This document shows positions 4,656 through 21,469 of a DNA stretch of 64,000 nt, piece by piece. Location: positions 1-64,000 of the forward strand of contig CAIOGO010000013.1 of assembly GCA_903857865.1 (NCBI GenBank), read 5' to 3'. The notes below the pieces were generated by a model. That model was given only the letters and a program-made list of their open reading frames with translations. It searched no databases and was not told where the DNA came from. Made by a program: the position numbers and the translations under genes. Every line of letters begins with the position of its first letter. Within the stretch, counting starts at the first letter, position 1. This DNA is from an uncultured bacterium (lineage in GTDB: Bacteria; Bipolaricaulota; Bipolaricaulia; UBA7950; UBA9294).

Positions 4656-4764
4656 AGCGCGGATCGTAGTCCAGCAAGTGTGCCGGACACAACGCGATCG
4701 GCCGCCCCGGCGGAGATGGGCGGCGGGTCAGAACCGTAGCTCCGCGCAGGTCTTTGTGTTGGGC

Positions 4765-4815
4765 TTCACGAGCCTCTCCGCCTCCCTTATGATCTCCTCC
4801 AAGGAGGGCTGGCGG
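4765..4815 (+). promoter_or_regulatory. Fixed-geometry promoter of the secreted array (copy 1)
   Basis: TTCACG (4765-4770), a 17-bp spacer and TATGAT (4788-4793), then CTCCTCCAAGGAGG and the ATG at 4816. The -35 box begins exactly 51 bp before the start codon, as in four other genes of the array. Transcription would begin about 15 nt before the ATG, almost at the Shine-Dalgarno. The CCTCC/GGAGG palindrome straddles the expected start point. Confidence 0.75.
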
Positions 4816-7761
4816 ATGAAGAGAGTCGTGGCGTTCACTCTGCTTGTCGTCCTGGCCGTTGGCTTGCTCTGCCTCGGAGCATCTGAGACGCTGACCAATC
4901 GCACCGGTAAGACCGCCTCCGGCGTTGTCATCACTTTCTCTGAGTCCGTTCGCATCTCAAGCTACAACGAGTCCATATTCCCCAATCAGAGCCCCTCTGG
5001 GCGTGCTGACCAGTTCACCTTCAGTGGAGGGACGCTGGCCAACGGAAGTCGCTTCAAGGTGACGTGGTCGCCGAACAGCGCTGAGATCGTGAGCGAACAC
5101 TGGGTCACAACGGTCGGCGGTTCCGTCGAAGCGCCGATAGCGGGCCCCTGCTCGCTGTGTGATGATTTCGGGGGAACCCAGCTCGACACATGCAAGTGGG
5201 CAGACACGAGTGGGATGTGGCGAGGAGCACGCGTATCCCAAGACGGCGCGCTCATTCTCTCCACTAGTGGCGACTACGACTACTCCGATCCGCAAGTGAC
5301 CGGGCAGTACCAACTCCTTGGGGATTTCTCAATCGAAGTCTCGTGGCGAATCACAGCCGGTTGGCAGGCCGCGATCAGGCCAGCAGGAGCCGGTGTGCAC
5401 TCCGACGGTGCAGCTGTTTGCCTGTACGTGAACCAAGCTACGTGGGTCCAGATCAGCCGCACCAGGCATCCGGACCGCGAGACAGTTGAGGCCTACGCGT
5501 CCACAGGAGGCCTACTGGGAAGCGTTCCTTGCAGCGCCACAACGGGCGCTTTTCGCGTAGTGAGAGAGACAGGCCGAGTCAGCTTCTACTACAACGTCGG
5601 TCAAGGCTGGCAATACCTGTGCTCCGCATCCTCCTTCCCTGCGGCTGCCTACCCTCGTCTCTCCGCCGTCAGCGCACAGTCTCATCATGCATTCGTGACG
5701 GAATTCGACGACTTCAGGCTCGTTGAAGGCGCCACCTCCTATGTGGCTCTTGACTGGGTCGATAGCTTCGTGCCCAGCGCTGACTTCATGGTTGGAGCAG
5801 CCATCGAGACACTCCTCGGGAAGCGTGTGTGGGATCAGTTCTGGAGAGACCTCGATCCGCTGCAGGTGATGAAGGACAACGGCCTGACCTGGATACGGAC
5901 ACCTGTACAGATGAGAAGCTCCGAGTACCTTCGAAATACGCCATACTCGCAATGGCCGAGCCTGCCATGGCGCTCTGAATACTGGTGCTCTCTGGAATGG
6001 GCCGAGCGGATCTTACGTGAGGGCGCTGACCATGGACTCAGGTTGAACCTTCAGCTAGTCCTGAGCGATCAGACAGCCCACAGGCGAATCCAAGAAGCCC
6101 CGGCGGAATGGAAGGGGCTCAGTCTCGAGAGGACCGCCGACCTACTAGAGCAGTACGGCTACGACACGGCGCGCTACTTCAAGGAGAGGGGGATCCCGAT
6201 TGAGATCTATGATGTCGGGAACGAGATCGAACTCGGCATTCTCAACTTCCGACCCGGCGAACGCATCAGCGTGCCTGCTGGCGTCGACCCTAACCAAGAC
6301 GATTCCTGGATGAGGGAGAACGTGTGGAAGCCCGAGGCCTTCCTGCTGAAGCACGCCATTGCGGGGATCAAGCGTGCGAACCCGAGCGTCAAGATCACCC
6401 TGCACATTGCCGCTTGTTTCGACCTCTATCCCAACCAGGCCTACCCGTTCTTCAAGGCCATGACGGACTTCGGTGTAGAGTTCGACTATGCAGGCCTCTC
6501 GCTGACGTATCCCACCATCGACAGCGATTGGCCAGCGAACCGGTACTCCTCCAAGTGCTGGTGGCGACACATCCTAGCGACCGTCGATGCCGTCACCTCG
6601 CTCGGCAAGAGGGTGATGATCTCGGAAGGGAGCTACCCGAATGACCCGACCGGCGTTCAGCAATCCCCAATGCCCGACTACCCTTACACTCCGAAAGGCC
6701 AGGCGGCTTGGGTTCACGACGTACTCCGCTTCGCGCGGAATGCCTCGAACGTGCTGGGCTTCTTCTACTGGGACGTCGACCTCTTCCCAGGCATCTTCCA
6801 TGAGACGACAGTGACCCCGGAAGAGCACTACGGGCTCTTCGGAAGTGACTCGCAGATCTTCCCAGCCATGCGAGAGTTCAACGCGAACCTCAGCAGCGCT
6901 TCCCCGACAGACCACCGCAATGCGATCCCTGGCCAGGAGGGGGAACTTGCCGGAAACGACTTCCCTCTACCCGTTCTAGAGACAGTTCCTGCCGCTTTCG
7001 TGAGTTCCACGGCGTCATTACCCGAAGCGACGGAGCTGCAGCAGTCAGTCCAGACCGCACAGGTGACGTCCAACGCAGTGCGAGTCACCCTAGGGCAGGG
7101 CTTGCATGGCGCAGAAGACTGGAACGGCAAGGTCCTCGTAAGCGACTGGTGGACGAATCTGCTCTACGCTGTGGATCTCACAACTAGGTCGGCCCAGATG
7201 ATCCGGGTGCTTTCGTATCACATCCGCGATATCGCGGTCGATGGGGATGTTCTGTACACGTCGTTGACGCTCGATCGAACCGGAGTGGTACGCTACGGTC
7301 TCGCCTCCGGCGGAGCGGACGCTGTCCGCTTCGGGACAGCTTTGGGTTTCACTGACCCCGAACTGCGCGGCATCGAGGTGGATGGGGATACGCTCTACCT
7401 CCTCGGCATAGGGGGCAGCGGACAGCAGCTCGTCGTCTGCAATCTTGCGAACGGCACCCTGGAGTCTACGTTCGTCATACCCCCCGAGTACCAGAGGAGC
7501 AACCTCTCCGGGCTTGAGGCTTACGACGGCCACCTCTACACCCTGGACTGTGGCGGCGGGGTGATCTTCTCACTCGATCTGACGTCAGAGGGCCTGCGCA
7601 TGCGCCCGTTCCTCGATCTCGGATCTTGCGTTCCACCGAGAGAAAGGGGAAGCGGCGGGTTCTGCGGTTTTGATTTCGGCGCAACTCAGATCTATGTGAC
7701 GTCGATGGACAGGGATGGGACTGCATCGTATCTCCATGTCTTGGGTTACCCTGCGCCATAG
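4816..7761 (+). CDS. Secreted GH53-like glycoside hydrolase with LamG-like and beta-propeller modules
   Basis: A 981-residue exported protein. I start it at the ATG at 4816, where the ribosome site and the MKR signal peptide (1-25) match its paralogs, not at an upstream in-frame ATG. Modules in order: a ~75-residue N-terminal module (SETLTNRTGKTASG) shared with two paralogs; a jelly-roll/LamG-like region (about 115-295); a TIM barrel (about 308-690); and a C-terminal beta-propeller-like repeat region (about 755-981). The barrel fits GH53-type galactanases: acid/base E470 in DVGNEIELGI, nucleophile E604 in MISEGSYP, and a GQAAWVHDVL helix. Both catalytic residues are present. Galactan is the family substrate, not demonstrated here. 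Confidence 0.8.
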   Translation: MKRVVAFTLLVVLAVGLLCLGASETLTNRTGKTASGVVITFSESVRISSYNESIFPNQSPSGRADQFTFSGGTLANGSRFKVTWSPNSAEIVSEHWVTTVGGSVEAPIAGPCSLCDDFGGTQLDTCKWADTSGMWRGARVSQDGALILSTSGDYDYSDPQVTGQYQLLGDFSIEVSWRITAGWQAAIRPAGAGVHSDGAAVCLYVNQATWVQISRTRHPDRETVEAYASTGGLLGSVPCSATTGAFRVVRETGRVSFYYNVGQGWQYLCSASSFPAAAYPRLSAVSAQSHHAFVTEFDDFRLVEGATSYVALDWVDSFVPSADFMVGAAIETLLGKRVWDQFWRDLDPLQVMKDNGLTWIRTPVQMRSSEYLRNTPYSQWPSLPWRSEYWCSLEWAERILREGADHGLRLNLQLVLSDQTAHRRIQEAPAEWKGLSLERTADLLEQYGYDTARYFKERGIPIEIYDVGNEIELGILNFRPGERISVPAGVDPNQDDSWMRENVWKPEAFLLKHAIAGIKRANPSVKITLHIAACFDLYPNQAYPFFKAMTDFGVEFDYAGLSLTYPTIDSDWPANRYSSKCWWRHILATVDAVTSLGKRVMISEGSYPNDPTGVQQSPMPDYPYTPKGQAAWVHDVLRFARNASNVLGFFYWDVDLFPGIFHETTVTPEEHYGLFGSDSQIFPAMREFNANLSSASPTDHRNAIPGQEGELAGNDFPLPVLETVPAAFVSSTASLPEATELQQSVQTAQVTSNAVRVTLGQGLHGAEDWNGKVLVSDWWTNLLYAVDLTTRSAQMIRVLSYHIRDIAVDGDVLYTSLTLDRTGVVRYGLASGGADAVRFGTALGFTDPELRGIEVDGDTLYLLGIGGSGQQLVVCNLANGTLESTFVIPPEYQRSNLSGLEAYDGHLYTLDCGGGVIFSLDLTSEGLRMRPFLDLGSCVPPRERGSGGFCGFDFGATQIYVTSMDRDGTASYLHVLGYPAP

Positions 7762-8118
7762 CTACTTGGCCACTGCCACGACCGAGATCGGCTGCGGTGC
7801 CAGGATGGTCGAGTGCGGTACTCCCGGGTGTGATATCGCCGCACTGAAGAGACGCTGGCGAGACCGCGAGCCAATCCAGGCCAGCTTTCGCGACACCGAC
7901 TACCACTCTGCCACGGTCACGCGCGTTCTGCGTTCAGTCCCTCAGGCTCCAAAGCGACCGGCTGTCTCTTCCTATCTGGACGGCCGCGTTCCGGGATCGG
8001 TTACTCAGGCTCTCCAGATCCACTCACAAGAGCCTCTTCGCCCGGGCAGCGCACGATCGCTGGACGCTTCACGCGCCTCTCTGCGTCCCCTATGATCTCC
8101 TCCAAGGAGGGCTAGCAG
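7762..8118 (+). promoter_or_regulatory. Intergenic region: paired degenerate motif and array promoter (copy 2)
   Basis: No gene is visible. The core promoter is TTCACG (8068-8073), a 17-bp spacer and TATGAT (8091-8096), then CTCCTCCAAGGAGG and the ATG 51 bp after the -35 start. Two degenerate copies of a GTTC...CAG...CTC motif begin at 7925 and 7988, 63 bp apart. The same pair, 64 bp apart, occurs before the gene at 19055 at nearly the same distance from the -35 box (143 and 145 bp). It is either a conserved control site or a remnant of a duplicated intergenic segment. Confidence 0.6.
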
Positions 8119-10707
8119 ATGAAGAGGCTTGTCGCGATCTGGCTGGCGGGGCTACTGGTGTGTGCCTTGTGCTTCCTCGGCGGGACAGGGGCAGGTAGCG
8201 CTACGGGAGCCCCACCTGCGAGCGATATCCCTGTAGTCACAGGTGATCTCCTCAACCCGCTCTACTTTGCCCACGGGGCGTACGTAATGCAGGGTGTGTC
8301 GGATCACGAGAAGGCCTTCGCGCTCCCGCTAGGAGGCATCCCTGAACTGGCCTTCCTGCCAACCGTCACCGGCATCGATCCGGCGAGCGTGACCTGGAGC
8401 CTCCAGATCAGCCATCCGGAAGGTATCGGCGCTGAGATCGCCGATGGCACCCTCTACATCTGGGGCGACAGCACGTCGTGGGCGGGCTACGGCGCAGTGA
8501 CGCTGGCCGCAACTGAAGGCGGCACAACGGCTTCAGTCACGATCCCCGTGACCGTCTTCCGTGCTGACAAGACCCTTGTCAATTCCGAAGGCAACAAGGA
8601 CTACTTCGTCCCCTGGTCGCCGCAGCTCGACATCAACCGGGTGCTCTCCGTCGAAGAGCACATGCGCGTGTACAACAAGGACGAAGGCGCACTGGATCGA
8701 ACAATCCGTTGGTCGACGTGGAGGAAGATGGAGTATATGCGCGGAGCTGTCCTCTTCGGCCCGTGGAACTGGCAGACAATGCCGAGCTGGACCCCCGCCG
8801 CATGGCGGCTCTCCATGGACAACACGCTGCTCGAGCTGAAGGCTCTTGGCTGTGACGCCGCGAGCATTTGGCAGAACTACGTCATGGAAACGCAGGACGC
8901 AGCCGTGCCCTCCGCGCTCTATGACCGTTGCGATCCAGGTGGCGTCACACTTACCGCGGAGGAGTTGGGCTACATCGTTGACGAGGCCCATAGACTCGGG
9001 TTCACTGTTCTGATTGCGCCAACCGTTCACGAGCAACCTGGACAAGATCGGTGCGACTTCCATCCCCCGTCTCTCGACGTCTGGTTTCAGGCACTTTCAG
9101 ACATCGGACGCTGGAACGCCACTGTCGCGTTTCAGACAGGGGCAGATGTCTTTGTCGCGTTTCACAACATGGGCCTTGCGACCTCCATCCGCAAGGGGAG
9201 GCTCACATGGGAGCGCTGGAACAAGGGGATGATTGATGTAGTCGCTTCTGCACGTGACTGCTACCCGGGGCCGGTGGCGCACTTGCCCGGCAGCCTGCAG
9301 GTGGCCGAGTACTACAACTACCGAGACATGGCGCCACTGTTCGAGGCCGTCGATATCATAGGAGGTAACAGCAATTTCGCTTTCCTCCCGGTTGACTCTA
9401 GCCCTACGGTTGAGGAGCTGAAGGCTCTGATTTCCGAGCGCATACGTACTCTAATCGAGCCAGGGAGTCGCATGTTCTCCAAGCCGATGCTCATGAACGA
9501 GGGCTTCATGGGGAGTTTCGATGGTGCCGTTCGCGATTTCGACTTCACGGGCACCTTGGGGGCGGTCTACGACGGTGAAGAGCAGGCCACGTGGTATGAG
9601 GCGTACTTCCAGAGCGTGAAGAGCTTCCCATTCATCTATGGCTTTGGCTGGGCACCTTGGGATCTGTCTCCTGGGCGTGGCGGGGTTGGTGACGTCAACG
9701 CCACGCCGAGGCTGAAGCCCGCTGAGCGCATCATCGAAGCAGCGTACCGTGTGCAGGTTGTCGCCCGCCCGGTGATGCTGGATGGCGACATGTCAGAGTG
9801 GCAGGCCGTCGCTCCTGTCTTCCAGGGGCAAACGCCAGCAACACAAGTGGCGCTGTCGAGTGTGAGGACTGTGACGGATGACCTCTATCAGTACATCCAG
9901 GTCGAGGTCAATGCCCCCATCACGCCCCCACTTCAGGTCAACATCCTCATCGATCAGAACCGCGACGGAGTCGCTGAGTTCCCACTTGCCGTTTCATCAG
10001 GAGAAGGGAAGTCGTGGGCTACCCTCTTCGCCGACATGACTTGGAGCAGCATACGCGGGCTGTGCGATGTCATGCCGTCACCTAGTGGCAGCACCTTCGA
10101 ATTGAGGATCCCGCGCATCTTCATCGGCGAGAGAGCAGCGCCGGCCATGCGCGTCGAGCTCGTCGATCTGAGTACTCACCGTACGCTCTCCGCAACGAAC
10201 TGGCTTGCCGAGGGCCTGGCCAGCGAACAGGCGACGATTCCGACACCCATGGCCAACTCGGTGTGGCTTGTATTGACTCAGTTCGGCGGGCACACAACTG
10301 CGCCCGTGGAGGTGATCTCCGGTAATCGATCCATCTGTGGGCGCTACGCGGGCGATGGGAGCTATACCGCATACCTTCGCACAGACCCGTCTCTGCTCCG
10401 GCTGGTAGGGGGGCACTCATATCGGGTCTCATTTGACTACCGAGTCCTCATTTCGAACGCGAAAGGCTTCGAGACCCTCTTCTACTCGCCACAGGGAAGC
10501 AACGAGGGCAAATGGCTAGCGTCCAAGACCGTCTACGGCCCTGACGGTAGCTCAGGTACCGCAACACTCACTGCAACGCTTCTCAACTACCCTGACTACG
10601 AGGTCCGTTGGAACATCGTTGCCACCGGGGCAATCGTCATAGACAACATCGTGCTTACGGATGTCGCAATGGGCGCAACGGTGGCGACCGAGGACGCTGA
10701 GAAGTGA
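8119..10707 (+). CDS. Secreted GH113-like protein with Ig-like N-module and two C-terminal sugar-binding-like modules
   Basis: An 862-residue exported protein. After the signal peptide (1-27) come: an Ig-like module (about 35-147, containing ISHPEGIGAEIADGTLYIWG); a linker shared almost word for word with two paralogs (KDYFVPWSPQLDIN); a TIM barrel (about 186-545); a CBM9/DOMON-like module starting DGDMSEWQ at 553; and a C-terminal jelly-roll-like module (about 714-845). The nucleophile-type Glu is present (E461, LMNEGFM). The position where GH113 enzymes carry the acid/base Glu reads FHNMG (N350/M351), so hydrolysis is doubtful. Its 3' end is joined to the next gene across 23 bp. Confidence 0.78.
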   Translation: MKRLVAIWLAGLLVCALCFLGGTGAGSATGAPPASDIPVVTGDLLNPLYFAHGAYVMQGVSDHEKAFALPLGGIPELAFLPTVTGIDPASVTWSLQISHPEGIGAEIADGTLYIWGDSTSWAGYGAVTLAATEGGTTASVTIPVTVFRADKTLVNSEGNKDYFVPWSPQLDINRVLSVEEHMRVYNKDEGALDRTIRWSTWRKMEYMRGAVLFGPWNWQTMPSWTPAAWRLSMDNTLLELKALGCDAASIWQNYVMETQDAAVPSALYDRCDPGGVTLTAEELGYIVDEAHRLGFTVLIAPTVHEQPGQDRCDFHPPSLDVWFQALSDIGRWNATVAFQTGADVFVAFHNMGLATSIRKGRLTWERWNKGMIDVVASARDCYPGPVAHLPGSLQVAEYYNYRDMAPLFEAVDIIGGNSNFAFLPVDSSPTVEELKALISERIRTLIEPGSRMFSKPMLMNEGFMGSFDGAVRDFDFTGTLGAVYDGEEQATWYEAYFQSVKSFPFIYGFGWAPWDLSPGRGGVGDVNATPRLKPAERIIEAAYRVQVVARPVMLDGDMSEWQAVAPVFQGQTPATQVALSSVRTVTDDLYQYIQVEVNAPITPPLQVNILIDQNRDGVAEFPLAVSSGEGKSWATLFADMTWSSIRGLCDVMPSPSGSTFELRIPRIFIGERAAPAMRVELVDLSTHRTLSATNWLAEGLASEQATIPTPMANSVWLVLTQFGGHTTAPVEVISGNRSICGRYAGDGSYTAYLRTDPSLLRLVGGHSYRVSFDYRVLISNAKGFETLFYSPQGSNEGKWLASKTVYGPDGSSGTATLTATLLNYPDYEVRWNIVATGAIVIDNIVLTDVAMGATVATEDAEK

Positions 10708-10730
10708 CGTACCGATGGAAGAAGTCACGG

Positions 10731-12899
10731 ATGAACGCACGTAGCGTCCGTCTCGCGCTGGAACTGCTCTTGGCCGCTTTGCTTTGCCTCGGCGCTACCC
10801 CAACCACGAGCAAGTCGATGGGGTTCGCGACGACCACTGACACTCCGACCGTCACCGGCGACATTCTCAACCCGGCGTACTTCGCTCACGCGGCGTACGT
10901 CACGCAGGGCGTGAGCGATCGCGCCAAGGTCTTCTCCCTGCCGCTAAGAGGCGTCCCTGAACTGGACTTCCTCCCAACGGCCTCTGGCATCGAACCGGCG
11001 AGCGTGATATGGAGTGTCGAGATCAGCCATCCGGAAGGCATCGGCGCCGAGATCGCCGGTGGTACCCTCTTCATCTGGGGCAACAACGCGGCGTGGGCGG
11101 GATACGGCGCCGTCACCCTAACTGCGGCCTCGGGCAATGCGTCGGGCTCCGTCACCATCCCCGCGACTGTATTCCGCTCTGACAAGACTCTGGTCAATTC
11201 CGAAGGCAAGAAGGACTACTTCGTCCCCTGGTCGCCGCAGCTCGACATCAACCGGATCCTCTCCGTTGAAGAGCACATGAGGAAGTACAACAAGGATCAG
11301 GGGAACCTCGATCGAAGTGCCCAGTGGTCGCGCTGGAAGCGGATGGCGCCGTTGCGAGACGTCGAGATCATCAAGTGGGCCAACGCCGAGGCAACCGCGG
11401 GTCGGTGGACTCGGCTAAGCCAGTTTGCTCTCGTCGACGTTCTCCTGGGAGAGCTCCAGCGGCTGGGAGTGCAGACCATCCGAGTACCAGACGCGCTCTA
11501 CCTTCCAACAGTCTCGGGCAGCGAGATTCGCCCAGTCTATGACCATTGGAACTCCGGGCCATCAAGAACCGCCGAAGAGACGACCTATGTGGTAGACGAG
11601 GCGCACCGACTGGGGATGGCGGTCATGCTAAGCAATTGGATTGGTGTCGATGCGGGTGCTACTGGAGTCGCAATGGAGAGCTGGCAGGCAAGTCCGACTG
11701 ACCCGAACGCGTTCTGGGACAACTACGAGCGAGTTACGCTCGCAGCGATCAAGCAGTGGACGAGCCTTGGAGCAGACATCGTAAGCATCGGGAATGCGGT
11801 CGAGTACATAGGCCCCAACACCGCCTCAAGTAGGAGCCTCACGAACGACAGACTGATGGAACTGGCGGCTGCTTCCAGGGCACTCTATCCGGGGCCACTA
11901 GGCTACATCGGAGGAGGTCCCTGGCCCGGCAACTTTCCTCCCTGGAGCAGCCTTCTGGGGGCTCCCTTTTGGGCCTCTGTGGACATTGTTAGTGTTGGTA
12001 TCTCACTTAACCAACTCGATCCGCTTTCCCCCTCTTTGGCCACGGACGCTCGCATTCTCACGCGATGGCACGACTGGATCGATGAGTACTTCGGACCGTT
12101 CCAGCAGAGGTTGAACAAGCCCTTCGTCGCAAACGAGAATGGATGCGGACCCGTTGAGGGGGCCCTCGTGTGGGGCGCCTACTACAGGATCCCGGAGAAC
12201 CCGGTGATCGATCTATCACAGATGGCTCGCTACTACATCCTGCAGAATGAGGCGTTCCGCGACATGAATGGCTACTACGGCCCCGGCTGGTTCGCCTTCG
12301 CCTTCGACCCAGGCCTTCCAGGAGGCGTGCGAGACCCTGATTGGAACGCCAGGCTGAAGGTGGAGGATGTGATTCGCGAGGTGTTCGACGGCCCCCCAGA
12401 TACAGAGACGATCCACATCGACGGGAGTGTCGACGACTGGCCCGCGGCCGCACTCTTGGCGCGCGACCCGCGAGGCGACGTCGGCGGCAGCGGCAGAGAC
12501 GATCTGCTCGCGCTCCACGGCGCGGAGAGCGACTTCTATTACTACATTCGCCTCGACTACGCTCAGCCCCCAACTGGGTATCTGGCCATTGGGCTCGACA
12601 CAGATGCCGACGGATCACCAGAAGTGGCCATCGTGTGCAACAATCGCTGGACGCCAAACCACCGCTGGACGGCCTCGTTGGAGACGCCGGCCTACAACCC
12701 CAGCGACTGGATTGGGGTGGGAGACATTGTCGATGCCGGTCCCAGTCTGGAGATGCGCATAGCCAAGAGGTATCTCCCGTCTGTTCGCGGACGCATCGCG
12801 ATCTGCAGCGTGCAGGACTACGACGAGGCGAATGGGAACGTGTGGGCAATCGTCTCCGATGAGATGCACGGCGTGTTTGAAATCCCACGACTGCCATAG
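10731..12899 (+). CDS. Secreted GH113-like protein, acid/base residue replaced
   Basis: A 722-residue protein from the ATG at 10731. A GTG at 10704 overlapping the previous stop is also in frame but would put nine polar residues before the signal peptide. Layout: signal peptide (1-25), shared Ig-like module (about 30-145), shared linker KDYFVPWSPQLDIN, TIM barrel (about 185-550) and a C-terminal CBM9-like module starting near DGSVDDWPAAA. It lacks the second C-terminal module of its neighbours. The nucleophile-type Glu is E469 (VANENGCG). The acid/base site reads SIGNAVE with Ala356 where GH113 has Glu. No promoter precedes it, so it is cotranscribed with the gene before it. Confidence 0.77.
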   Translation: MNARSVRLALELLLAALLCLGATPTTSKSMGFATTTDTPTVTGDILNPAYFAHAAYVTQGVSDRAKVFSLPLRGVPELDFLPTASGIEPASVIWSVEISHPEGIGAEIAGGTLFIWGNNAAWAGYGAVTLTAASGNASGSVTIPATVFRSDKTLVNSEGKKDYFVPWSPQLDINRILSVEEHMRKYNKDQGNLDRSAQWSRWKRMAPLRDVEIIKWANAEATAGRWTRLSQFALVDVLLGELQRLGVQTIRVPDALYLPTVSGSEIRPVYDHWNSGPSRTAEETTYVVDEAHRLGMAVMLSNWIGVDAGATGVAMESWQASPTDPNAFWDNYERVTLAAIKQWTSLGADIVSIGNAVEYIGPNTASSRSLTNDRLMELAAASRALYPGPLGYIGGGPWPGNFPPWSSLLGAPFWASVDIVSVGISLNQLDPLSPSLATDARILTRWHDWIDEYFGPFQQRLNKPFVANENGCGPVEGALVWGAYYRIPENPVIDLSQMARYYILQNEAFRDMNGYYGPGWFAFAFDPGLPGGVRDPDWNARLKVEDVIREVFDGPPDTETIHIDGSVDDWPAAALLARDPRGDVGGSGRDDLLALHGAESDFYYYIRLDYAQPPTGYLAIGLDTDADGSPEVAIVCNNRWTPNHRWTASLETPAYNPSDWIGVGDIVDAGPSLEMRIAKRYLPSVRGRIAICSVQDYDEANGNVWAIVSDEMHGVFEIPRLP

Positions 12900-12915
12900 G
12901 GGGCTACCTCGACAC

Positions 12916-12966
12916 TTCACGAGCCTCCCTGCCTCCCCTATGATCTCGTCCAGGGAGGCCTGGGAT
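12916..12966 (+). promoter_or_regulatory. Fixed-geometry promoter of the secreted array (copy 3)
   Basis: TTCACG (12916-12921), 17-bp spacer, TATGAT (12939-12944), GGGAGG, then the ATG 51 bp after the -35 start. The palindrome between -10 and start codon is weaker here (CTCGTCCAGGGAGG). The promoter lies only 16 bp beyond the stop codon of the previous gene, so two transcription units abut. Confidence 0.75.
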
Positions 12967-15555
12967 ATGAAGAGGCTCGCTGTTGTGTCGTTGTCGGGAC
13001 TGCTGCTCGTCGCTTTGTCTTTGCTCGGCGCACCCGAGACGGCCGCGACCAAGCCGGTGGGATTCGCAACGACCACTGCCACTCCTACGGTGACGGGAGA
13101 GTTGCTCAATCCGGCGTACTTCGCTCACGCGGCGTACGTGATGCAGGGCGTGAGCGATCCTGCCAAGGTCTTTGCGCTGCCGCTGCTCGGAGTCCCCGGA
13201 CTCAGCTTCTCACCCACCGCTTCCCGTATCGATCCGGCAAGCGTGACCTGGAGCCTCCAGATTAGCCACCCGGAAGGCATCGGCGCTGAGATCGCCGATG
13301 ACACCCTCTACATCTGGGGCAACAACACCGCGTGGGCGGGATACGGCGCCGTGACGCTGACAGCCACCACTGGCGGAGGGACGGGTTCCGTTACGATCCC
13401 CGTGACCGTCTTCCGTGCTGACAAGACCCTTGTCAATTCCGAAGGCAACAAGGACTACTTCGTCCCCTGGTCGCCGCAGCTCGACATCAACCGGATCCTC
13501 TCCGTTGAAGAGCACATGAGGAAGTACAACAAGGACGAGGGCTCGCTCGATCGCACGATTCATTGGTCTCAGTACCGGCCGCTGACATTCATGAAGTCAG
13601 TGAACGCGGGGTGTCGATGGCTGAATGACCACTCGCTGCAGGGCTGGAACGCTGCGCTGCAGTATCGGATGGTCGACCTTGCCTTTAGCGAACTGCAGAG
13701 GCTGCATGTCGACTGGATCAAAATCGACCCACCCTTCTATATGTGGACGCTGGACAGCACGGATGTGGTCCGAGTCTATGACAGCCCCTTGCTCGGTCCG
13801 AGCTGGACGAATGCCGACATCCGATACGCGATCGACGAGGCACACCGCCGCGGGATTCAGGTGATGGGCTCCCTCCAGCTCTGGCCGCTGCGCGACGGTG
13901 CCTTCTACGGCCCTGGCCGGGGGGAGATGCGCCCGTCATCGTGGGACGATTGGGTTGGGAGCTACTCGGGAGTCGTACAGGAACTGGCGACGATCTGGCA
14001 GGCAGCGGGGGCGGATGCCGCGTGCCCTGGGGTCGAGCTCTTCAACCTCAGCAAGGAGCTGACGGGCATTCGCTACATCTCCGACGCGGAGTGGAATGCC
14101 TCGATGGTTCGTGTTGTTGGAGAGGCCCGAACCGTGTACGACGGGCCGGTGACGTGGGCCCCGTCGGCGCTTCCCATGATTCTTCACGATGACGCAGCCT
14201 ATGAGCGGGAGTTGACGCTCTTCCGCGAGCTGGACATTCTTGGTTTCAATGCCTATTACTGCCCACTTGCCACCGGGTCGAACCCGTGCCTCAACGACGT
14301 CACTCAGGGATGGCTGGGCTGGGAAGCCCGAGTCATACGCCCGATTGTGGACCGTCTCCAGAAGCCCTACGTGTTCACTGAGATCGGAGGCGAAAGCAAG
14401 GACGGGCTGATCCAGAATGGACCAATGCAGGCGAGTACGAAGCCGCTGGACCTGCAGGAGCAGGTGATGCTCTACGAGTCGGTTGTCGCTGCCTTCTTCT
14501 CCAAGCCGGGCTTCTTCGGTGCCTTCTGGTGGGAGTACTCTCTGAACTCGGCTGCGCCGACAGACTCGATCGGCGGGTACGACGACGGCGAGTGCACCTT
14601 CAGGCTGAAGCCGGCCGAGCAAGTCGTGGAACTGGCCTATGCCGGGCACCGTACGGAACCTGCAGCTAGCCTTGATGGCAGCCCAGATGACTGGACCGCG
14701 GATCGTCGTCTTGCTCAGGATCCCTCCGGAGACAGCCTGGAGTCTGGCGTCGACTTGATTGCACTCTACGCGGCGCACGATGACTGGTACCAGTACATAG
14801 CTGTCCAATTGCATGGCGGACTGGGCGACAACACGTACCTACACCTGTATCTCGACGTCAACGACGACGGATCACCGGAGACGCCGGTGTCAATCGACAA
14901 GCGAGGCTCGTTTGGTGCCCTGCGGAGCAGTACCTCGTGGGCAGATCTCGCTGGCTTCGTCGATGTAGCGGCAAGTCCGGATCGATCCTGGTTCGAGGTC
15001 CGGATCCCGTGGACCCTCGTGCCCCAGGACATTTCCCGGAACCTGCGGGCCGAGATTTGGAGCGCAAGATTGAACGCGATCGCGGATGTCATCACTTCCG
15101 CGCATACCTCCGCCGTCGTGTTCACTGAGAACGGCCAGTACACGAGCGCTCCGGACGAGGTGATCACCGGACAGCGTTCGATCTCAGGGAGCTACTCGGA
15201 CGGCGGAGGCTATATGGCCTACCTCCGCACGGACCCATCCGTCCTCCGGCTCGTCGGGGGGCACACATACCAGATCTCGTTCGATTACCGCATTCTTGTG
15301 CCGAATGCGAAGGGATTCGAGACCCTCTTCTATTCGCCGAAGGGAGGCAGCGAGGGCAAGTGGCTGGCGTCGAAAACCGTCTACGGTCCTATCGGTAGCT
15401 CAGGTACCGCCACCCTCACGGCGACGCTTCTCGACTACTCAGACTATGAAGTCCGGTGGAACATCGTCGCCACCGGGGCCATTGTCATTGACAACATCGT
15501 GATCACAGACCTCACAACGGGAGCAGCAGTTGCGGCAGAGGACGCCGAGGAATGA
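12967..15555 (+). CDS. Secreted GH113-like glycoside hydrolase with complete catalytic pair
   Basis: 862 residues, exactly the length of the paralog at 8119-10707 and with the same module order: signal peptide (1-25), Ig-like module, shared linker, TIM barrel, CBM9-like module (DGSPDDWTADRRL) and C-terminal jelly-roll-like module ending in EDAEE. Here both catalytic positions are kept: E357 in PGVELFN as acid/base and E472 in YVFTEIGGES as nucleophile. The last motif is close to the FTEIGY signature of GH113 beta-mannanases. The end modules are nearly identical to those at 8119-10707 while the barrel is strongly divergent. The next gene starts 23 bp after its stop. Confidence 0.82.
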   Translation: MKRLAVVSLSGLLLVALSLLGAPETAATKPVGFATTTATPTVTGELLNPAYFAHAAYVMQGVSDPAKVFALPLLGVPGLSFSPTASRIDPASVTWSLQISHPEGIGAEIADDTLYIWGNNTAWAGYGAVTLTATTGGGTGSVTIPVTVFRADKTLVNSEGNKDYFVPWSPQLDINRILSVEEHMRKYNKDEGSLDRTIHWSQYRPLTFMKSVNAGCRWLNDHSLQGWNAALQYRMVDLAFSELQRLHVDWIKIDPPFYMWTLDSTDVVRVYDSPLLGPSWTNADIRYAIDEAHRRGIQVMGSLQLWPLRDGAFYGPGRGEMRPSSWDDWVGSYSGVVQELATIWQAAGADAACPGVELFNLSKELTGIRYISDAEWNASMVRVVGEARTVYDGPVTWAPSALPMILHDDAAYERELTLFRELDILGFNAYYCPLATGSNPCLNDVTQGWLGWEARVIRPIVDRLQKPYVFTEIGGESKDGLIQNGPMQASTKPLDLQEQVMLYESVVAAFFSKPGFFGAFWWEYSLNSAAPTDSIGGYDDGECTFRLKPAEQVVELAYAGHRTEPAASLDGSPDDWTADRRLAQDPSGDSLESGVDLIALYAAHDDWYQYIAVQLHGGLGDNTYLHLYLDVNDDGSPETPVSIDKRGSFGALRSSTSWADLAGFVDVAASPDRSWFEVRIPWTLVPQDISRNLRAEIWSARLNAIADVITSAHTSAVVFTENGQYTSAPDEVITGQRSISGSYSDGGGYMAYLRTDPSVLRLVGGHTYQISFDYRILVPNAKGFETLFYSPKGGSEGKWLASKTVYGPIGSSGTATLTATLLDYSDYEVRWNIVATGAIVIDNIVITDLTTGAAVAAEDAEE

Positions 15556-15578
15556 GATACGGAGGGGAGGACTCGCGG

Positions 15579-17084
15579 ATGAAGAGGCTGGTTGTGGTCG
15601 TTCTGGTGGTGGGCCTGGCTGCGGCCGTTCTGTGTCTCGGTAGCACTGAGTCACTGACCAATCACAGCGGGAAGACAGCGTCGGGCGTGGTGCTGACCTT
15701 TTCCGAGTCGGTGCGCATCACGAGCTACGATCAGACCGTCTTCCCGAAACAGGATCCTGCCGGCCGCGCCGAGACGTTCAGCTTTAGCGGCGGAGAACTC
15801 GCCAACGGCGGGCGCTTCAAGGTGACGTGGACGCCGAACAGCGAGGAGATCGTGGACACGGAGTGGATTGCAGCACGAGGAGAGACACCGACGAAGGAGA
15901 CTCTCGCCGGGCCGGACGAACCCTATGTACATGATCCGAGCTTCTACGTGGGAGCTCGTTTGAGTGGACGACATCTTACGACACGCATCTGGGACCCCGA
16001 ATGGGAGTGGGACAACCCTCTTCCTGTTCTACGGCAGCATGGCTTCGAGTGGGCGATCGTCTCCATGAGAACCACTTCCTCGGCGGCACTTCGCAGCACC
16101 TCCGTGAACCAGTGGAACACATTGCCTTGGCAGAGCGAGTACTGGTGCTCAGTGGAGATGGCTGAGGAGATGCTGCGAGAGGCAGCAGATGCTGGTTTCC
16201 ACCTTTGTCTCTATCTGAACCTCAGCGACACCGAGACGAATGGCGGGCAACAGCATGCGCCCGCAGCCTGGGTAGGGCTCAGCGTTGAGGAGACGGCAGC
16301 GCGGGTCGAGGAGTACACGTACACAACAGCCCGCCATCTGGCGGAGCTAGGGCTAAAGATAGAGCTGTACAGCATGAGCGGCGAGATCGAATGGGGGATC
16401 CTCGACTTCCGTCCTGCCTGGTCGGCGACTGACGGACGAATCCGGCTTCCGAGTACGAACCCTGACATCACGACGAACATGGCATACATGCGAAAGGAGG
16501 TCTGGCCGATCGAGGCGCAGCTCCTCCGCGCTGGGATTGCCGGCATAAGACGAGCTGACCCGAGTGCACAGATCCTCCTGTACGTCGGGTGCTTGAGTCT
16601 TCTCCCGAACGATCTACCGACTGTCTCCTTCTTCGAGGCCATGGTCGCCGAGGGAGTCGACTTCGACTTCGCCGGCTTCTCGTGGGTCTATCCATACGCT
16701 GCGGGGTTGTGGCCCTTCGCCAAGATGGCCGTCAGCGACTTCCTCGATTCTGTGGATTCTATCTGCGAGCGCATTGCTGTCCTAGGGAAGCCGATCATCA
16801 TTGCGGAGTGCGGCTATCCAAGCAGTGCGAGCGGCGTCCCTGAGGCGCCAATGCCTAGGTATCCCTTCACGCCTGCCGGACAGGCGCAATGGGTGCACGA
16901 CCGTCTCCGGTATGCGCGCAATGACCCCCGGATTCGCGGCCTCTTCTACTTCGCGCCTGATTGGCCCGAGAGGCCGTATGACGGAGCAGACTTGGCTCAC
17001 ATGTCGAGCAACTCCTTGTTCTTCGCCGACGGAACCGAGAAGCCCGCTCTTGACGAGTTCCTTGTGAACCTCCCACAAGACTGA
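15579..17084 (+). CDS. Secreted GH53-like glycoside hydrolase, short form
   Basis: A 501-residue protein from the ATG at 15579, preceded by GGAGGGGAGG; an ATG overlapping the previous stop (15552) is less likely. It has a signal peptide (1-24), the SESLTNHSGKTASG N-terminal module (about 24-100) and a GH53-like barrel (about 115-495), with no LamG-like or propeller module. The acid/base Glu is E269 (SMSGEIEWGI; the usual Asn before it is Gly) and the nucleophile is E410 (IIIAECGYP). Its first 117 bases are identical to those of the gene at 19055, a sign of recent recombination. It is second in a unit with the GH113-like gene upstream. Confidence 0.78.
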   Translation: MKRLVVVVLVVGLAAAVLCLGSTESLTNHSGKTASGVVLTFSESVRITSYDQTVFPKQDPAGRAETFSFSGGELANGGRFKVTWTPNSEEIVDTEWIAARGETPTKETLAGPDEPYVHDPSFYVGARLSGRHLTTRIWDPEWEWDNPLPVLRQHGFEWAIVSMRTTSSAALRSTSVNQWNTLPWQSEYWCSVEMAEEMLREAADAGFHLCLYLNLSDTETNGGQQHAPAAWVGLSVEETAARVEEYTYTTARHLAELGLKIELYSMSGEIEWGILDFRPAWSATDGRIRLPSTNPDITTNMAYMRKEVWPIEAQLLRAGIAGIRRADPSAQILLYVGCLSLLPNDLPTVSFFEAMVAEGVDFDFAGFSWVYPYAAGLWPFAKMAVSDFLDSVDSICERIAVLGKPIIIAECGYPSSASGVPEAPMPRYPFTPAGQAQWVHDRLRYARNDPRIRGLFYFAPDWPERPYDGADLAHMSSNSLFFADGTEKPALDEFLVNLPQD

Positions 17085-17121
17085 ACCCCGACTCTGACCG
17101 TGCACCGCTTTCACTTGCCCC

Positions 17122-17172
17122 TTCTTCCGACCCCGCTTGCCTCGTATCATCTTCTCCTAGGGAGGCTGGTGG
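17122..17172 (+). promoter_or_regulatory. Fixed-geometry promoter of the secreted array (copy 4)
   Basis: TTCTTC (17122-17127), 17-bp spacer and TATCAT (17145-17150), then CTCCTAGGGAG and the ATG 51 bp after the -35 start. The boxes differ from the other copies, but spacing is preserved. The palindrome between -10 and start is kept in altered form (CTCC TAG GGAG). Confidence 0.6.
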
Positions 17173-18771
17173 ATGAAGCGACTTGCTCTGGTCCTTGTGT
17201 CAGCCTCGTTGCTCGGCGCGGTGTGCTTCTTGGCAGGAGCAGCTGTGGCCACGGACAAGGGGGTGCTCTCTGCGACGACTGCCTCGAGCGGCAGCGCTTC
17301 GCTGACCTACGACCAGATCATGACTTGGGTCGCCCACTACCCCGGCCCCGATGAGCCGCAGTACGTCCCCGCGGACGGAGAGCAGATCTGGCTGACCGAT
17401 CTCGAAGGCCATGCCAGTATCTACGACAACGATTCGATCAGCATCAACTACGCTCCCGGCTACAACCGGGGACAGATCACGGGGATTGAGGTCTATCGGA
17501 ACGACGTCAAGATGCGCTTCTTGCCAGCGTTGTTTGACGTGCTCACGAACGAGCAGATGAGGACGTTCGACGGGAACCCCGATGAGAAGACACCCGCGAG
17601 TCGGCATGTGGACCACGCGATCTGGGGCTACACGTACAGGTTTGTGATCGTTGTCTCAGAGGAGAACGTCACGCTCAGCACTCGCGTGAGGAGCCCAGTT
17701 GCCGCTATCGAACCAGCCTACGCGAACATCGGATCCCAATGGGCCGTGCTCTTGATGTCGAATGAAGCCATCCTGCGCGGCCTCAAAGCGATCAAGAGCA
17801 TGGGGTTTGAGGGAGTTCAGTTCACCAACTCGTTCTACATGGCGTCGGATAGGACGAACGACATCTTCGCCCAGTACACCTACGATACGACGATACTCCC
17901 CTCCTGGTCGCGCACCATGACGGACAAGGAGGTCCTCTGGCTTCTGGCGCTCATCCGTCAGGCCGGTTTGAAGGCGGAACTACGTGTGGAACTCTGGATC
18001 ACGGAAGCGTACACGCGCACTCATCCCCAGGCTGCTCGGTGCTGCATCACTCCTCCGAGTTGGGACGCCTGGTTCGCTAACTACACGGCGCTCTGCGTTC
18101 ACATGGCGCAGCTTGCCGAGCAGGGGGAGTGCGCCATCTTCACACCGCTCGTGGAGTTGGGTGAGGCCGAGCGTCGCACGGACCGGGTGCTCCGCCTGCT
18201 CGATGCAGTAGCTGCAGTCTTCTCAGGTGAGATCTGCGTTTCGCAATGCACGGTCGCCGCTCTGCGAGATGTGTCCCTCGAACTCCCGAAGGCAGAGCTC
18301 TGGCGTCAGTTCGACGCCCGCCTTGGCTCGTTCTGGACGTGGTCCCGAAACGGGAGAAACCTCACGATCGGCATGGAGTGGTGGCCCGGCTTCGTCGATC
18401 TGGGAACCAGCGCAGACCAGCGCTTCTCTCTCATGCTCGAGCAGTTCGTGCGCTTCTTCGGGACCGTCGTCGAGTACTTCAAAACGCGGTACCCCGGCCA
18501 TGCGGTTCGCTTCAGCGAGCTCGGCAGCTTCGACTACGACGGCGCGACGGTGGCGGCTCGTCACCCTTCGACGGTGCGGTCCTGCGATCACCAGGAATTC
18601 GCCGATGCCTATGCGGCACTGCTCGCTGGCACCGCAGCGCTTGGCATCAGCGCGAACGTGTGGAGCCTCTGGCTCGAGTCTGGGCCGGATTGGCATTCGA
18701 CTAGCCACCAGTATCTCGACTGGACCCCCGCGCTTGCGGTGGTGGAATCGATTGTCGGCCAAGCACCCTGA
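17173..18771 (+). CDS. Secreted GH113-like glycoside hydrolase without the shared Ig-like module
   Basis: A 532-residue exported protein with signal peptide (1-27). Its N-terminal ~150 residues (from SLTYDQIMTWVAHYP) are unlike those of the neighbours, and it has no C-terminal carbohydrate-binding module. The barrel (about 190-520) keeps a full catalytic pair: E328 in FTPLVELGEAE and E449 in VRFSELGSFDYDG, the latter matching the GH113 nucleophile block. It stands alone between two promoters. It could be the plain catalytic member of the array. Substrate unknown; mannan would be the family expectation. Confidence 0.72.
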   Translation: MKRLALVLVSASLLGAVCFLAGAAVATDKGVLSATTASSGSASLTYDQIMTWVAHYPGPDEPQYVPADGEQIWLTDLEGHASIYDNDSISINYAPGYNRGQITGIEVYRNDVKMRFLPALFDVLTNEQMRTFDGNPDEKTPASRHVDHAIWGYTYRFVIVVSEENVTLSTRVRSPVAAIEPAYANIGSQWAVLLMSNEAILRGLKAIKSMGFEGVQFTNSFYMASDRTNDIFAQYTYDTTILPSWSRTMTDKEVLWLLALIRQAGLKAELRVELWITEAYTRTHPQAARCCITPPSWDAWFANYTALCVHMAQLAEQGECAIFTPLVELGEAERRTDRVLRLLDAVAAVFSGEICVSQCTVAALRDVSLELPKAELWRQFDARLGSFWTWSRNGRNLTIGMEWWPGFVDLGTSADQRFSLMLEQFVRFFGTVVEYFKTRYPGHAVRFSELGSFDYDGATVAARHPSTVRSCDHQEFADAYAALLAGTAALGISANVWSLWLESGPDWHSTSHQYLDWTPALAVVESIVGQAP

Positions 18772-19054
18772 CTGAACGCAAGGCCGAACCGGCGCCGCCG
18801 CTTCTCCTGCCGGGGAGGACACCGCGATAGCTGTCACCAATCCGCTACAGTCACGCGCGTTCCACGATCAGTCCCCCAGACTCCACAGCACACGATAATC
18901 GCGTAGGCATGATCACTCCGCAGTTTCCAGATCGGTCCCCTAGGCTCTGACGACATATACCCAATGGCCCATTCCGCTTGGAGGAAACGCTCCTGGACCC
19001 CACTTCACGAGCCTCTCCGCCTACCCTATGATCTCCTCCAAGGAGGGGTGGTGG
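18772..19054 (+). promoter_or_regulatory. Intergenic region with paired degenerate motif and array promoter (copy 5)
   Basis: The core promoter is TTCACG (19004-19009), 17-bp spacer, TATGAT (19027-19032), CTCCTCCAAGGAGG and the ATG at 19055, again 51 bp from the -35 start. Two degenerate motif copies start near 18859 and 18923, 64 bp apart, matching the pair upstream of the gene at 8119. No coding sequence is visible in this stretch. Confidence 0.6.
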
Positions 19055-21469
19055 ATGAAGAGGCTGGTTGTGGTCGTTCTGGTGGTGGGCCTGGCTGCGG
19101 CCGTTCTGTGTCTCGGTAGCACTGAGTCACTGACCAATCACAGCGGGAAGACAGCGTCGGGCGTGGTGCTGGCCTTCTCCGAGTCGGTGCGCATCACGAG
19201 CTACGATCAGGCCGTCTTCCCAAACCAGGAGCCGACCGGCCGCGCCGAGAGGTTCACGTTCAGCGGCGGAGAACTGCCGAACGGCGGGCGCTTCAGGGTG
19301 ACGTGGACGCCGAGCAGCGCCGAGATCACGAGCAGCGAATGGATTGCGACGACGACAGCAGCAGCGGCAGGACCAATGGGGTTCCCGACAACCACTGCCA
19401 CTCCCGTCGTCGCCGGCAGCATCCTCAATCCCGCGTACTTCGCTCACGCGGCGTACGTCATGCAGGGCGTCAGCGACCGTGACAAGGCCTTCGCGCTCCC
19501 GCTAAGAGGCGTCGCCGAACTGGCCTTCCTGCCGACCGTCACCGGCATCGACCCAGCGAGCGTGACTTGGAGCTTTCAGATCAGCCATCCCGAAGGCATC
19601 GGCGCCGAGATCGCCGACGACACGCTCTACATCTGGGGCAACAACGCCGCGTGGGCGGGATACGGCGCGGTCACTCTGACTGCGACTGCAGGAGATGTCT
19701 CAGGCTCCGTCACCATTCCCGTGACGGCCTTTCGCGCAGACAGAACACTCGTGAGTCCTACCGGCATCACGGAGTATTTCGTGCCATGGGATCCCCAGCT
19801 CGACGTCAATCGGATCGGGTCTGTTCGCGAGCATGCCGCCAAGTACGGGAAGTCCGATGTTGGGCTTCTAGACGCTGCCGTCAACTTCTCGAGCTGGGTA
19901 CGTGCTACAAGAGAGAACGACGTGCACTTCTCGTTCTACTGGTCGAACGCGATGTCTACCGATGGGTGGTGGAGCCAACGGAACCAGCTCGCGCTCGTCG
20001 ATGTCTTTCTCGAAGAGGCACGGGCTACGGGGATCACCCGCATATTCTTCGAGAATCCGTTCTATGTCGATGGTTTCGGGGGCTCATCCCTGTACAGGGT
20101 GTACGATCACTTTGCTCCCGGAGTGAGCAAGACGCCGGATGAGGAAGCCTACCTGATCAACGAAGCGCATCGACTCGGAATCAAAGCTGTCCCGATCGTC
20201 TTTGTGACGATTGAGTTGGGCACGACGGGAGACAGCACATGGCACGAGCTGCATGAGCTCCAGCCGGTGGACCCGTCAGGCCTTTGGCGGTCTCTGAGCG
20301 CGGTTGTTGGTGACGAGGCGCGCCTCTGGCGCGACGCCGGGGCTGATGCGGCGGGTTTGATGAATCTGCACCTGATCCTTCCCAGCACAGCCACAAACGC
20401 ACGAGCCATCGACGGCCAGCTCACCGATCTTCTAGCTGCGCTCGGCGCAGCCTACGGAGGACCGACTGTGTATCTCGGCGGGTTCCCAGGGCAGGTCTGG
20501 GGAGGAGTACCCATAGCGGATCGGCAGTTCTGGCCCGCTGCAGACTACATCTCGCTAAGCACATCGAGCCCTACGGAACCTCTGACGCGGTACGACCATC
20601 CAAGCATTGGCCAGCTGGTGTCAGGATGGGACGAGTGGATCCAGCGATACCTCGACCCGTTCGTGGCTCGCTACCGCAGGCCGTTCATCCCGCACGAGAA
20701 CGGATGCTTCAGCCTGCGGGGGGCTGAGAATTGGCGAGGGTACTTCTACCAGCGCGCGGAAGCTGTGACAACTCCAATCGACCTCAACGCGCAAGCGAAC
20801 CTCTACAGTGCCTTCCTCCAGGCCTTTGCCGATGTGGACAGCTACATGGGACCTTCATTCTTCTGGTACCACTTTCTTGACCTCCCCGTGAACGGTGGCC
20901 GAAATGACCGCGACATGTCGCCTCGCCTGAAGCCCGCCGAGCAAGTGATGCGTACGTGGTGGCTCGGCGATGTACCTCGGCCCATCGTTGATGTCTCAGA
21001 CGGTGTCTCAGACGAGTGGCCCGGCACAGCACTCACGGCTCGCGACCCGATGGCGGACCAGACTGGAACCGGGGATGATCTTCTATCACTTCGAGCTCTT
21101 GAGGATGATTCCTACATCTACCTCGCTCTCGAGTACGCCAAGTCCCCAGCAGGTGGACTGGCAATCTGGGTGGACACGACGGGTGACCGCGTTCCGGAGT
21201 ACCACATCGGGATCGACGATTCCGGTGTGTGGGACGGGGTGAGGCGCTGGGTAGGCTATGTCCGACGGTCTGCGAACTGGCAATTCCAGGAGTGCATCGG
21301 AGTCCTGGATGTCGCCGTGACAGGGACACTCATCGAAGCACGGCTGCACAAGCGCTTCCTCGATGGCGACGAACGCCGCAAGTCCATCTACGTTGCTGAC
21401 CACAACGCAGACTGGTCGGGGCTCGACGACGAGATCCCAGGCTGGTTTGCCGTGCCGCTTGCGAACTAG
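19055..21469 (+). CDS. Secreted mosaic GH113-like protein carrying both shared N-terminal modules
   Basis: An 804-residue protein that joins the two N-terminal types of the array. Residues 1-100 are the SESLTNHSGKTASG module of the GH53-like genes. Residues about 110-225 are the Ig-like module of the GH113-like genes (FPTTTATPVVAGSILNP onward). A GH113-like barrel (about 260-620) and a CBM9-like module (from about 640, DGVSDEWPGTAL) follow. The nucleophile-type Glu is E548 (IPHENGCF). The acid/base position is L438 in LMNLHL, so the enzyme is probably inactive or noncanonical. The first 117 bases match the gene at 15579 exactly. It closes the array. Confidence 0.78.
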   Translation: MKRLVVVVLVVGLAAAVLCLGSTESLTNHSGKTASGVVLAFSESVRITSYDQAVFPNQEPTGRAERFTFSGGELPNGGRFRVTWTPSSAEITSSEWIATTTAAAAGPMGFPTTTATPVVAGSILNPAYFAHAAYVMQGVSDRDKAFALPLRGVAELAFLPTVTGIDPASVTWSFQISHPEGIGAEIADDTLYIWGNNAAWAGYGAVTLTATAGDVSGSVTIPVTAFRADRTLVSPTGITEYFVPWDPQLDVNRIGSVREHAAKYGKSDVGLLDAAVNFSSWVRATRENDVHFSFYWSNAMSTDGWWSQRNQLALVDVFLEEARATGITRIFFENPFYVDGFGGSSLYRVYDHFAPGVSKTPDEEAYLINEAHRLGIKAVPIVFVTIELGTTGDSTWHELHELQPVDPSGLWRSLSAVVGDEARLWRDAGADAAGLMNLHLILPSTATNARAIDGQLTDLLAALGAAYGGPTVYLGGFPGQVWGGVPIADRQFWPAADYISLSTSSPTEPLTRYDHPSIGQLVSGWDEWIQRYLDPFVARYRRPFIPHENGCFSLRGAENWRGYFYQRAEAVTTPIDLNAQANLYSAFLQAFADVDSYMGPSFFWYHFLDLPVNGGRNDRDMSPRLKPAEQVMRTWWLGDVPRPIVDVSDGVSDEWPGTALTARDPMADQTGTGDDLLSLRALEDDSYIYLALEYAKSPAGGLAIWVDTTGDRVPEYHIGIDDSGVWDGVRRWVGYVRRSANWQFQECIGVLDVAVTGTLIEARLHKRFLDGDERRKSIYVADHNADWSGLDDEIPGWFAVPLAN

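Follow-up and report, generated by a model that had tools for sequence, protein, structure and literature searches.

How can neighbouring genes for secreted proteins have their ends in common when their central domains differ strongly? This question is raised by an array of seven genes, g1 to g7, at positions 4816-21469 of a 64,000-nucleotide stretch (the window), which is the beginning of a 123-kb contig (CAIOGO010000013.1) of an uncultured Bipolaricaulota bacterium with a genome of 2.24 Mb in 22 contigs. As an initial annotation had stated, all seven genes encode secreted proteins; they lie on the + strand and carry clan GH-A barrels, and their signal peptides are evident as read from the sequence only. 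We consider it very probable that the array consists of secreted clan GH-A glycosidases on an exchangeable chassis, in which barrel cassettes were swapped by recombination and the ends were homogenised. We demonstrated that the ends and the barrels had different histories, that the pattern recurs in a second genus, and that the body of the gene was allelically replaced at one locus.

An Ig-like module had been recognized in four of the proteins (g2, g3, g4, g7) and an SE(T/S)LTN module, labelled SES here, in three (g1, g5, g7), and both distributions could be verified. The Ig modules are about 74-84% identical at the amino acid level with a synonymous divergence (dS) of 0.47-1.07, whereas the barrels of the same Ig-bearing pairs are about 25-35% identical and their silent sites are at or near saturation; the strong difference among the barrels was thus seen correctly, and moreover they belong to two families (GH53 and GH113-like). 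Where two genes share a four-fold codon, its third base was the same in a fraction of 0.45-0.69 of the cases in the Ig modules and 0.23-0.34 in the barrels, where 0.30 is expected from codon usage and saturation, therefore constraint on the protein alone cannot explain the contrast. The SES modules are 64-86% identical, and in the g5/g7 pair they have 91% nucleotide identity and a dS of 0.13, the signal-peptide DNA being identical. The last ~150 residues are indeed common to g2 and g4; their description as nearly unchanged was too strong, since the identity is 73% in the protein and 75% in the DNA. The similarity of the DNA stops abruptly at the module edges, it reaches into a non-coding leader of ~50-60 nucleotides before g1, g2, g4 and g7, and that of the g2/g4 end block passes the stop codon into the starts of g3 and g5. 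Runs of identity inside the Ig modules exceeded the permutation expectation in g2/g4 and g3/g4 at all polymorphic sites (p=1e-4 for both) and at silent sites alone (p=2e-4 and p=0.04, respectively). The end modules are recently copied, and the barrels are old and strongly diverged.

The same discordance was found in a second genus of Bipolaricaulota (code g16), of which one genome per species was compared. Its barrels are related to those of g2 (35-40%), g4 (43%) and g3 (35-40%), and each of the barrel types c2, c3 and c4 has relatives in both genera. The barrels cluster by paralogue across the genera and the Ig modules by lineage, with Ig identities of 74-83% in the window, 66-94% in g16 and 55-65% between them. 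In approximately unbiased (AU) tests a single clade of the four window barrels was rejected (p=1.2e-6), as was a grouping of the Ig modules by barrel type (p=3e-4 for c2, 1e-5 for c4); the SES modules likewise set the g16 copies apart from the others. Barrels and end modules therefore gave neither the same tree nor the same divergence when compared as the initial annotation had proposed.

A set of related genes (in G036, G064 and G065) made it possible to follow the modules separately. The c3 barrels of G036 and G064 are 88% identical (dS 0.36); the Ig module of G036 has a dS of 0.21 to that of the c4 gene in G065 versus 0.73 to that of the c3 gene in G064, and despite the closer Ig the barrels of G036 and G065 are only ~23% identical. 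The G036/G064 barrels, the one orthologous pair near enough to measure, gave a dN/dS of 0.18, and the end modules of this pair 0.11-0.16. Positive selection on the barrels is ruled out for this pair. Since orthologous barrels evolve with a dN/dS of ~0.2, the diversity of the barrels reflects exchange of ancient barrels and not fast mutation, and as they are under purifying selection their function is maintained. The suggestion that the export and anchoring parts are kept constant around a varied core holds for the exchange of the core; for anchoring no support was obtained, as no known anchor was found.

The replacement itself can be read at hisS. In g16 a gene of the family stands beside hisS, and in four related genomes (G036, G065, G047 and G044; stretches L037, L088, L039 and L042, respectively) four different bodies follow the conserved N-terminus. 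Between G036 and G065 both flanks have 78-95% DNA identity, with 95% across 2.5 kb comprising upstream DNA, leader, SES and Ig; past the Ig module the body is of c3-type in G036 and of c4-type in G065, the two bodies do not match as DNA, and likeness resumes shortly after the stop codon. The comparison of the locus among related genomes thus located a breakpoint, resolved to ~10 nucleotides, at the Ig/barrel border. As flank and ends are constant and the body is changed, this is body replacement, and the barrel cassette is the changed part at the one locus where the direction is readable. G047 has a c2-type (g2-type) barrel at L039 8681-10853, interrupted by frameshifts or stops, which represents a decaying allele or an assembly error, and G044 has a fourth body that diverges already after SES. 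Different variable domains at one syntenic locus behind conserved flanks, the pattern of hsdS-type systems, were present in all four genomes. Other g16 genomes have hisS and no such gene in the stretch examined, the contig of G062 ending shortly after hisS. The G036 genome is a single 1.70-Mb contig, the locus lies on longer contigs in G047 and G044, and the G065 contig is 21 kb. The domain shuffling or gene conversion proposed initially is supported by the silent-site divergence, the AU tests and this replacement.

Two further observations were made around this locus. In G036, L037 14326-14403 is a remnant of the 3' flank which in G065 follows a second, c3-type gene, suggesting that a tandem copy was lost. 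A toxin-like PIN-domain gene lies just upstream of the cassette gene (L037 13365-13805 in G036) and is also present in G065.

It had to be considered whether simpler processes could generate these patterns. Plain gene duplication without recombination, after which purifying selection acted strongly on the ends and selection on the barrels was relaxed or positive, agrees with the low dN/dS of the end modules; it predicts, however, equal silent divergence, at odds with the gap between the Ig modules and the near-saturated barrels, and it is contradicted by the conflict of the barrel and Ig trees and by the orthologous barrel dN/dS, which is not raised. Constraint on the ends alone is ruled out by the silent sites together with the tree conflict, and we regard duplication of this kind as highly improbable. 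In another scenario the barrels stay in place, and gene conversion rewrites only leader, SES, Ig and C-terminal modules, with sister genes as donors. The patchy near-identity in the Ig modules of g2, g3 and g4 and the nearly identical SES of g5 and g7 speak for it, but at hisS the leader, SES and Ig remain joined to the upstream flank while the body changes, so that ends-only conversion appears unlikely as the full explanation; probably both end conversion and body exchange act.

Movement of the barrels by dedicated site-specific recombination or an invertase/shufflon would fit the junctions at a fixed border, yet no clear inverted repeats were found at the module borders and no recombinase among the genes scanned, which comprised part of the open reading frames (ORFs). 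A direct repeat that borders the gene at hisS was considered as an attachment site and rejected, since inspection suggests that it is the 5' part of the following gene, tentatively an acetyltransferase-like ORF; Pfam gave no match at the repeat, where the scan took in only an overlapping + strand ORF. Such a system is hardly to be expected here. Chimeras formed at the conserved Ig during assembly or binning of metagenome-assembled genomes (MAGs) could be suspected, considering that several genomes are fragmented and that the G047 gene is broken; nevertheless the pattern repeats in independent assemblies, among them the single-contig genome, the four window genes concerned lie on one 123-kb contig, and the c2, c3 and c4 barrels are each related across both genera, which leaves this explanation a slight chance.

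Several points weigh against barrel exchange on a common chassis. Most of the compared genomes are metagenome assemblies, in which conserved repeats such as Ig are prone to misjoins, and in G047 the gene is broken. With one genome per species, no recombination event was observed inside a single strain, and the tree conflict of the post-barrel domain was not significant (p=0.11). The silent sites of the ends may be under some additional constraint, although it would not produce replaced bodies. Finally, the enzyme activity is a prediction.

If the barrels are exchanged as we propose, RecA-type homologous recombination might take place between the conserved leader/signal/SES/Ig DNA and the shared downstream DNA, by which whole cassettes (barrel plus post-barrel domain, ~1.65 kb) would move between genes and loci, and the ends would become homogenised within a lineage. 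The enzymes may act on external beta-glycans of mannan- or galactan-like type, and the benefit could be that the substrate range changes and the expression and export signals stay constant. It is a more doubtful idea that Bipolaricaulota keep, at the level of the population, a stock of glycan-facing barrels that are interchangeable, are swapped at fixed expression sites and change the glycan specificity; this stock would include long-kept GH113-like barrels lacking the acid/base Glu as binding proteins or enzymes of altered mechanism.

The barrels were assigned by Pfam, PDB profile search and/or predicted fold to GH53 in g1 and g5 and to the GH113 type in g2, g3, g4, g6 and g7. For GH53, Pfam PF07745 matched g1 (E=8e-28; PDB 7osk, E=2e-12) and g5 (E=2e-25), and both have the two putative catalytic Glu residues (Glu470/Glu604 in g1, Glu269/Glu410 in g5). 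Pfam GH113 matched g2 (E=3e-14), g4 (E=6e-20) and g6 (E=5e-16) above the curated cut-off, and g7 just under it as a whole protein and just over it in the genome search; NCBIfam gave no useful match. g3 had no Pfam match of its own; it is 43% identical to g7 (BLASTP), and the family profile matches solved GH113 mannanases in PDB (E 7e-21). The AlphaFold2 model of g7 (pLDDT 74.8) had GH113 mannanases as best Foldseek matches (TMt 0.73-0.82), and for that of g2 (pLDDT 64) they came first in PDB (TMt 0.84 to 5ylh); both models display the (beta/alpha)8 fold of AaManA, aligning to 3civ/4cd6/5ylh with TMt 0.73-0.84.

According to the alignment to AaManA, the Glu/Glu pair of GH113 is kept in g4 (Glu357/Glu472) and g6 (Glu328/Glu449). 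In g2, g3 and g7, which we therefore call GH113-like only, the acid/base column has Asn350, Ala356 and Leu438, respectively, and the nucleophile is kept (Glu461, Glu469, Glu548). The nucleophile Glu is conserved in every alignment row covering its column; the acid/base Glu is present in the c4 relative and is not at that column in the c2 and c3 relatives. Barrels without it are unusual for GH113. g3 and two relatives have a Glu two residues beyond the acid/base column, and this displaced residue might serve as an altered acid/base. Mannan- and galactan-like polymers would be the expected substrates, a prior taken from family membership. Another match of the GH113 profile occurs in the same genome (G000:C22:1802-2434), inside a 936-amino acid open frame.

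The layout of the array is given in the table, where the names jelly-roll, propeller and post-barrel domain come from inspecting the sequence or model, without a database match.

Table. Genes, modules and neighbours of the array (positions in the window)
Feature	Position	Strand	Remarks
Amidohydrolase gene, left flank	3291-4655	-	Pfam Amidohydro_3
Shared non-coding leader	4764-4815	+	5' of g1, with Shine-Dalgarno; 82-87% nucleotide identity among copies matched alone
Leader copies	8067-8118 (g2), 12915-12966 (g4), 19003-19054 (g7)	+	
g1	4816-7761	+	signal + SES 4816-5109; GH53 barrel 5854-6873
g1 jelly-roll-like region	~5149-5760	+	by inspection
g1 beta-propeller-like C-terminus	~6892-7758	+	by inspection
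g2	8119-10707	+	signal; Ig 8230-8679; GH113-like barrel 8710-9708; post-barrel beta domain 9709-10188; C-terminal module common with g4 10252-10704
End block	10270-10735	+	g2 C-terminal module, intergenic DNA and g3 start; 77% DNA identity (blastn, 466 nt) to 15118-15583, its counterpart of g4 end and g5 start
g3	10731-12899	+	signal; Ig 10842-11294; GH113-like barrel 11325-12350; post-barrel beta domain 12351-12896
g4	12967-15555	+	signal; Ig 13078-13533; GH113 barrel 13564-14601, both catalytic Glu; post-barrel beta domain 14602-15066; C-terminal module 15100-15552
g5	15579-17084	+	signal + SES 15579-15869; GH53 barrel 16134-17057
g6	17173-18771	+	signal; own N-terminal region 17245-17742; GH113-like barrel 17740-18768
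g7	19055-21469	+	signal + SES 19055-19345; Ig 19406-19852; GH113-like barrel 19886-20923; post-barrel beta domain 20924-21466
DUF885 gene, right flank	21756-23546	-	Pfam PF05960, E=8e-129

In the AlphaFold2 model of g7, SES is a confident all-beta domain of ~80 residues directly after the signal peptide. It is lacking in g6, the homologues of which in G015, G022 and G005 have it. A lipoprotein reading was dropped after a lipobox check, as the Cys in several signal peptides is preceded by Leu or Val. In the same genome SES also precedes a transglutaminase-like domain, recognized by inspection (G000:C14:8272-8559; locus L045, ORF 7609-8604, - strand), therefore in this class the module is associated with secretion in general and is not specific to glycosidases. 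It was further observed on other large secreted proteins (L042 1-3132 in G044, L046 1-2754 in G022); L046 contains SES, a relative of the Ig module and the g2/g4 C-terminal module in another order, with a different barrel-like region at the end.

The two flanking genes are 2.4 and ~4.3 kb apart in the congeners G001 and G002, where the array is absent, thus the presence of the 16.6-kb array varies among members of the genus; gain and loss are not distinguishable. The array has a G+C content of 0.60-0.63; in most of the window on its right-hand side the value is 0.64-0.70. A Pfam scan of 20 flanking proteins, a part of the window ORFs, revealed no transporter, SusC/D and ABC types included, and no sugar regulator, and in this range the locus does not qualify as a polysaccharide utilisation locus, as had been noted initially. 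In named records the protein family occurs mostly in Candidatus Bipolaricaulis/Bipolaricaulota MAGs, and related genomes of this class also encode it; the placement of the organism in the phylum rests on these two observations.

Modular glycosidases are generally held to arise by domain shuffling, but as a rule the event has to be deduced from ancient architectures. In the present case the replacement can be seen at a single locus whose flanks are intact; the junctions are resolved to ~10 nucleotides, silent-site clocks date the modules separately, and the exchange process becomes directly testable by strain sequencing. The array offers a natural example of catalytic-core exchange on a secretion chassis, and it points to an ancient group of GH113-like proteins, lacking the acid/base residue, in a phylum that has been little studied. 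Cassette exchange as such is a known kind of process; we found no report of it, or of gene conversion, in bacterial glycosidases in the open-access literature. Polymorphic toxins and Rhs proteins also combine a constant N-terminus for export with a variable functional body and recombination at the border; unlike in those systems, no immunity genes or toxin domains were seen here, and the bodies are ancient glycosidase-type barrels.

With GH53 endo-beta-1,4-galactanases g1 and g5 share the match to PF07745 and to solved galactanases and both Glu columns, but they are fused to SES, which GH113-type proteins also have. The GH113-type proteins resemble the beta-mannanases of that family (AaManA, 3CIV/4CD6; BaMan113A; PMC9032380) in barrel fold and profile match, g4 and g6 also in both Glu residues, from which g2, g3 and g7 differ by lacking the acid/base Glu. 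The closest parallel to the exchange itself is the domain movement (DOMO) of target recognition domains in hsdS, where conserved intragenic flanks let recombination replace the recognition domain at or between loci (PMC3077401). In both cases a variable domain is replaced at one locus through conserved flanking sequence; unlike in hsdS, the exchanged part here is the GH-A barrel of a secreted glycosidase, in a single variable cassette of ~1.65 kb per gene.
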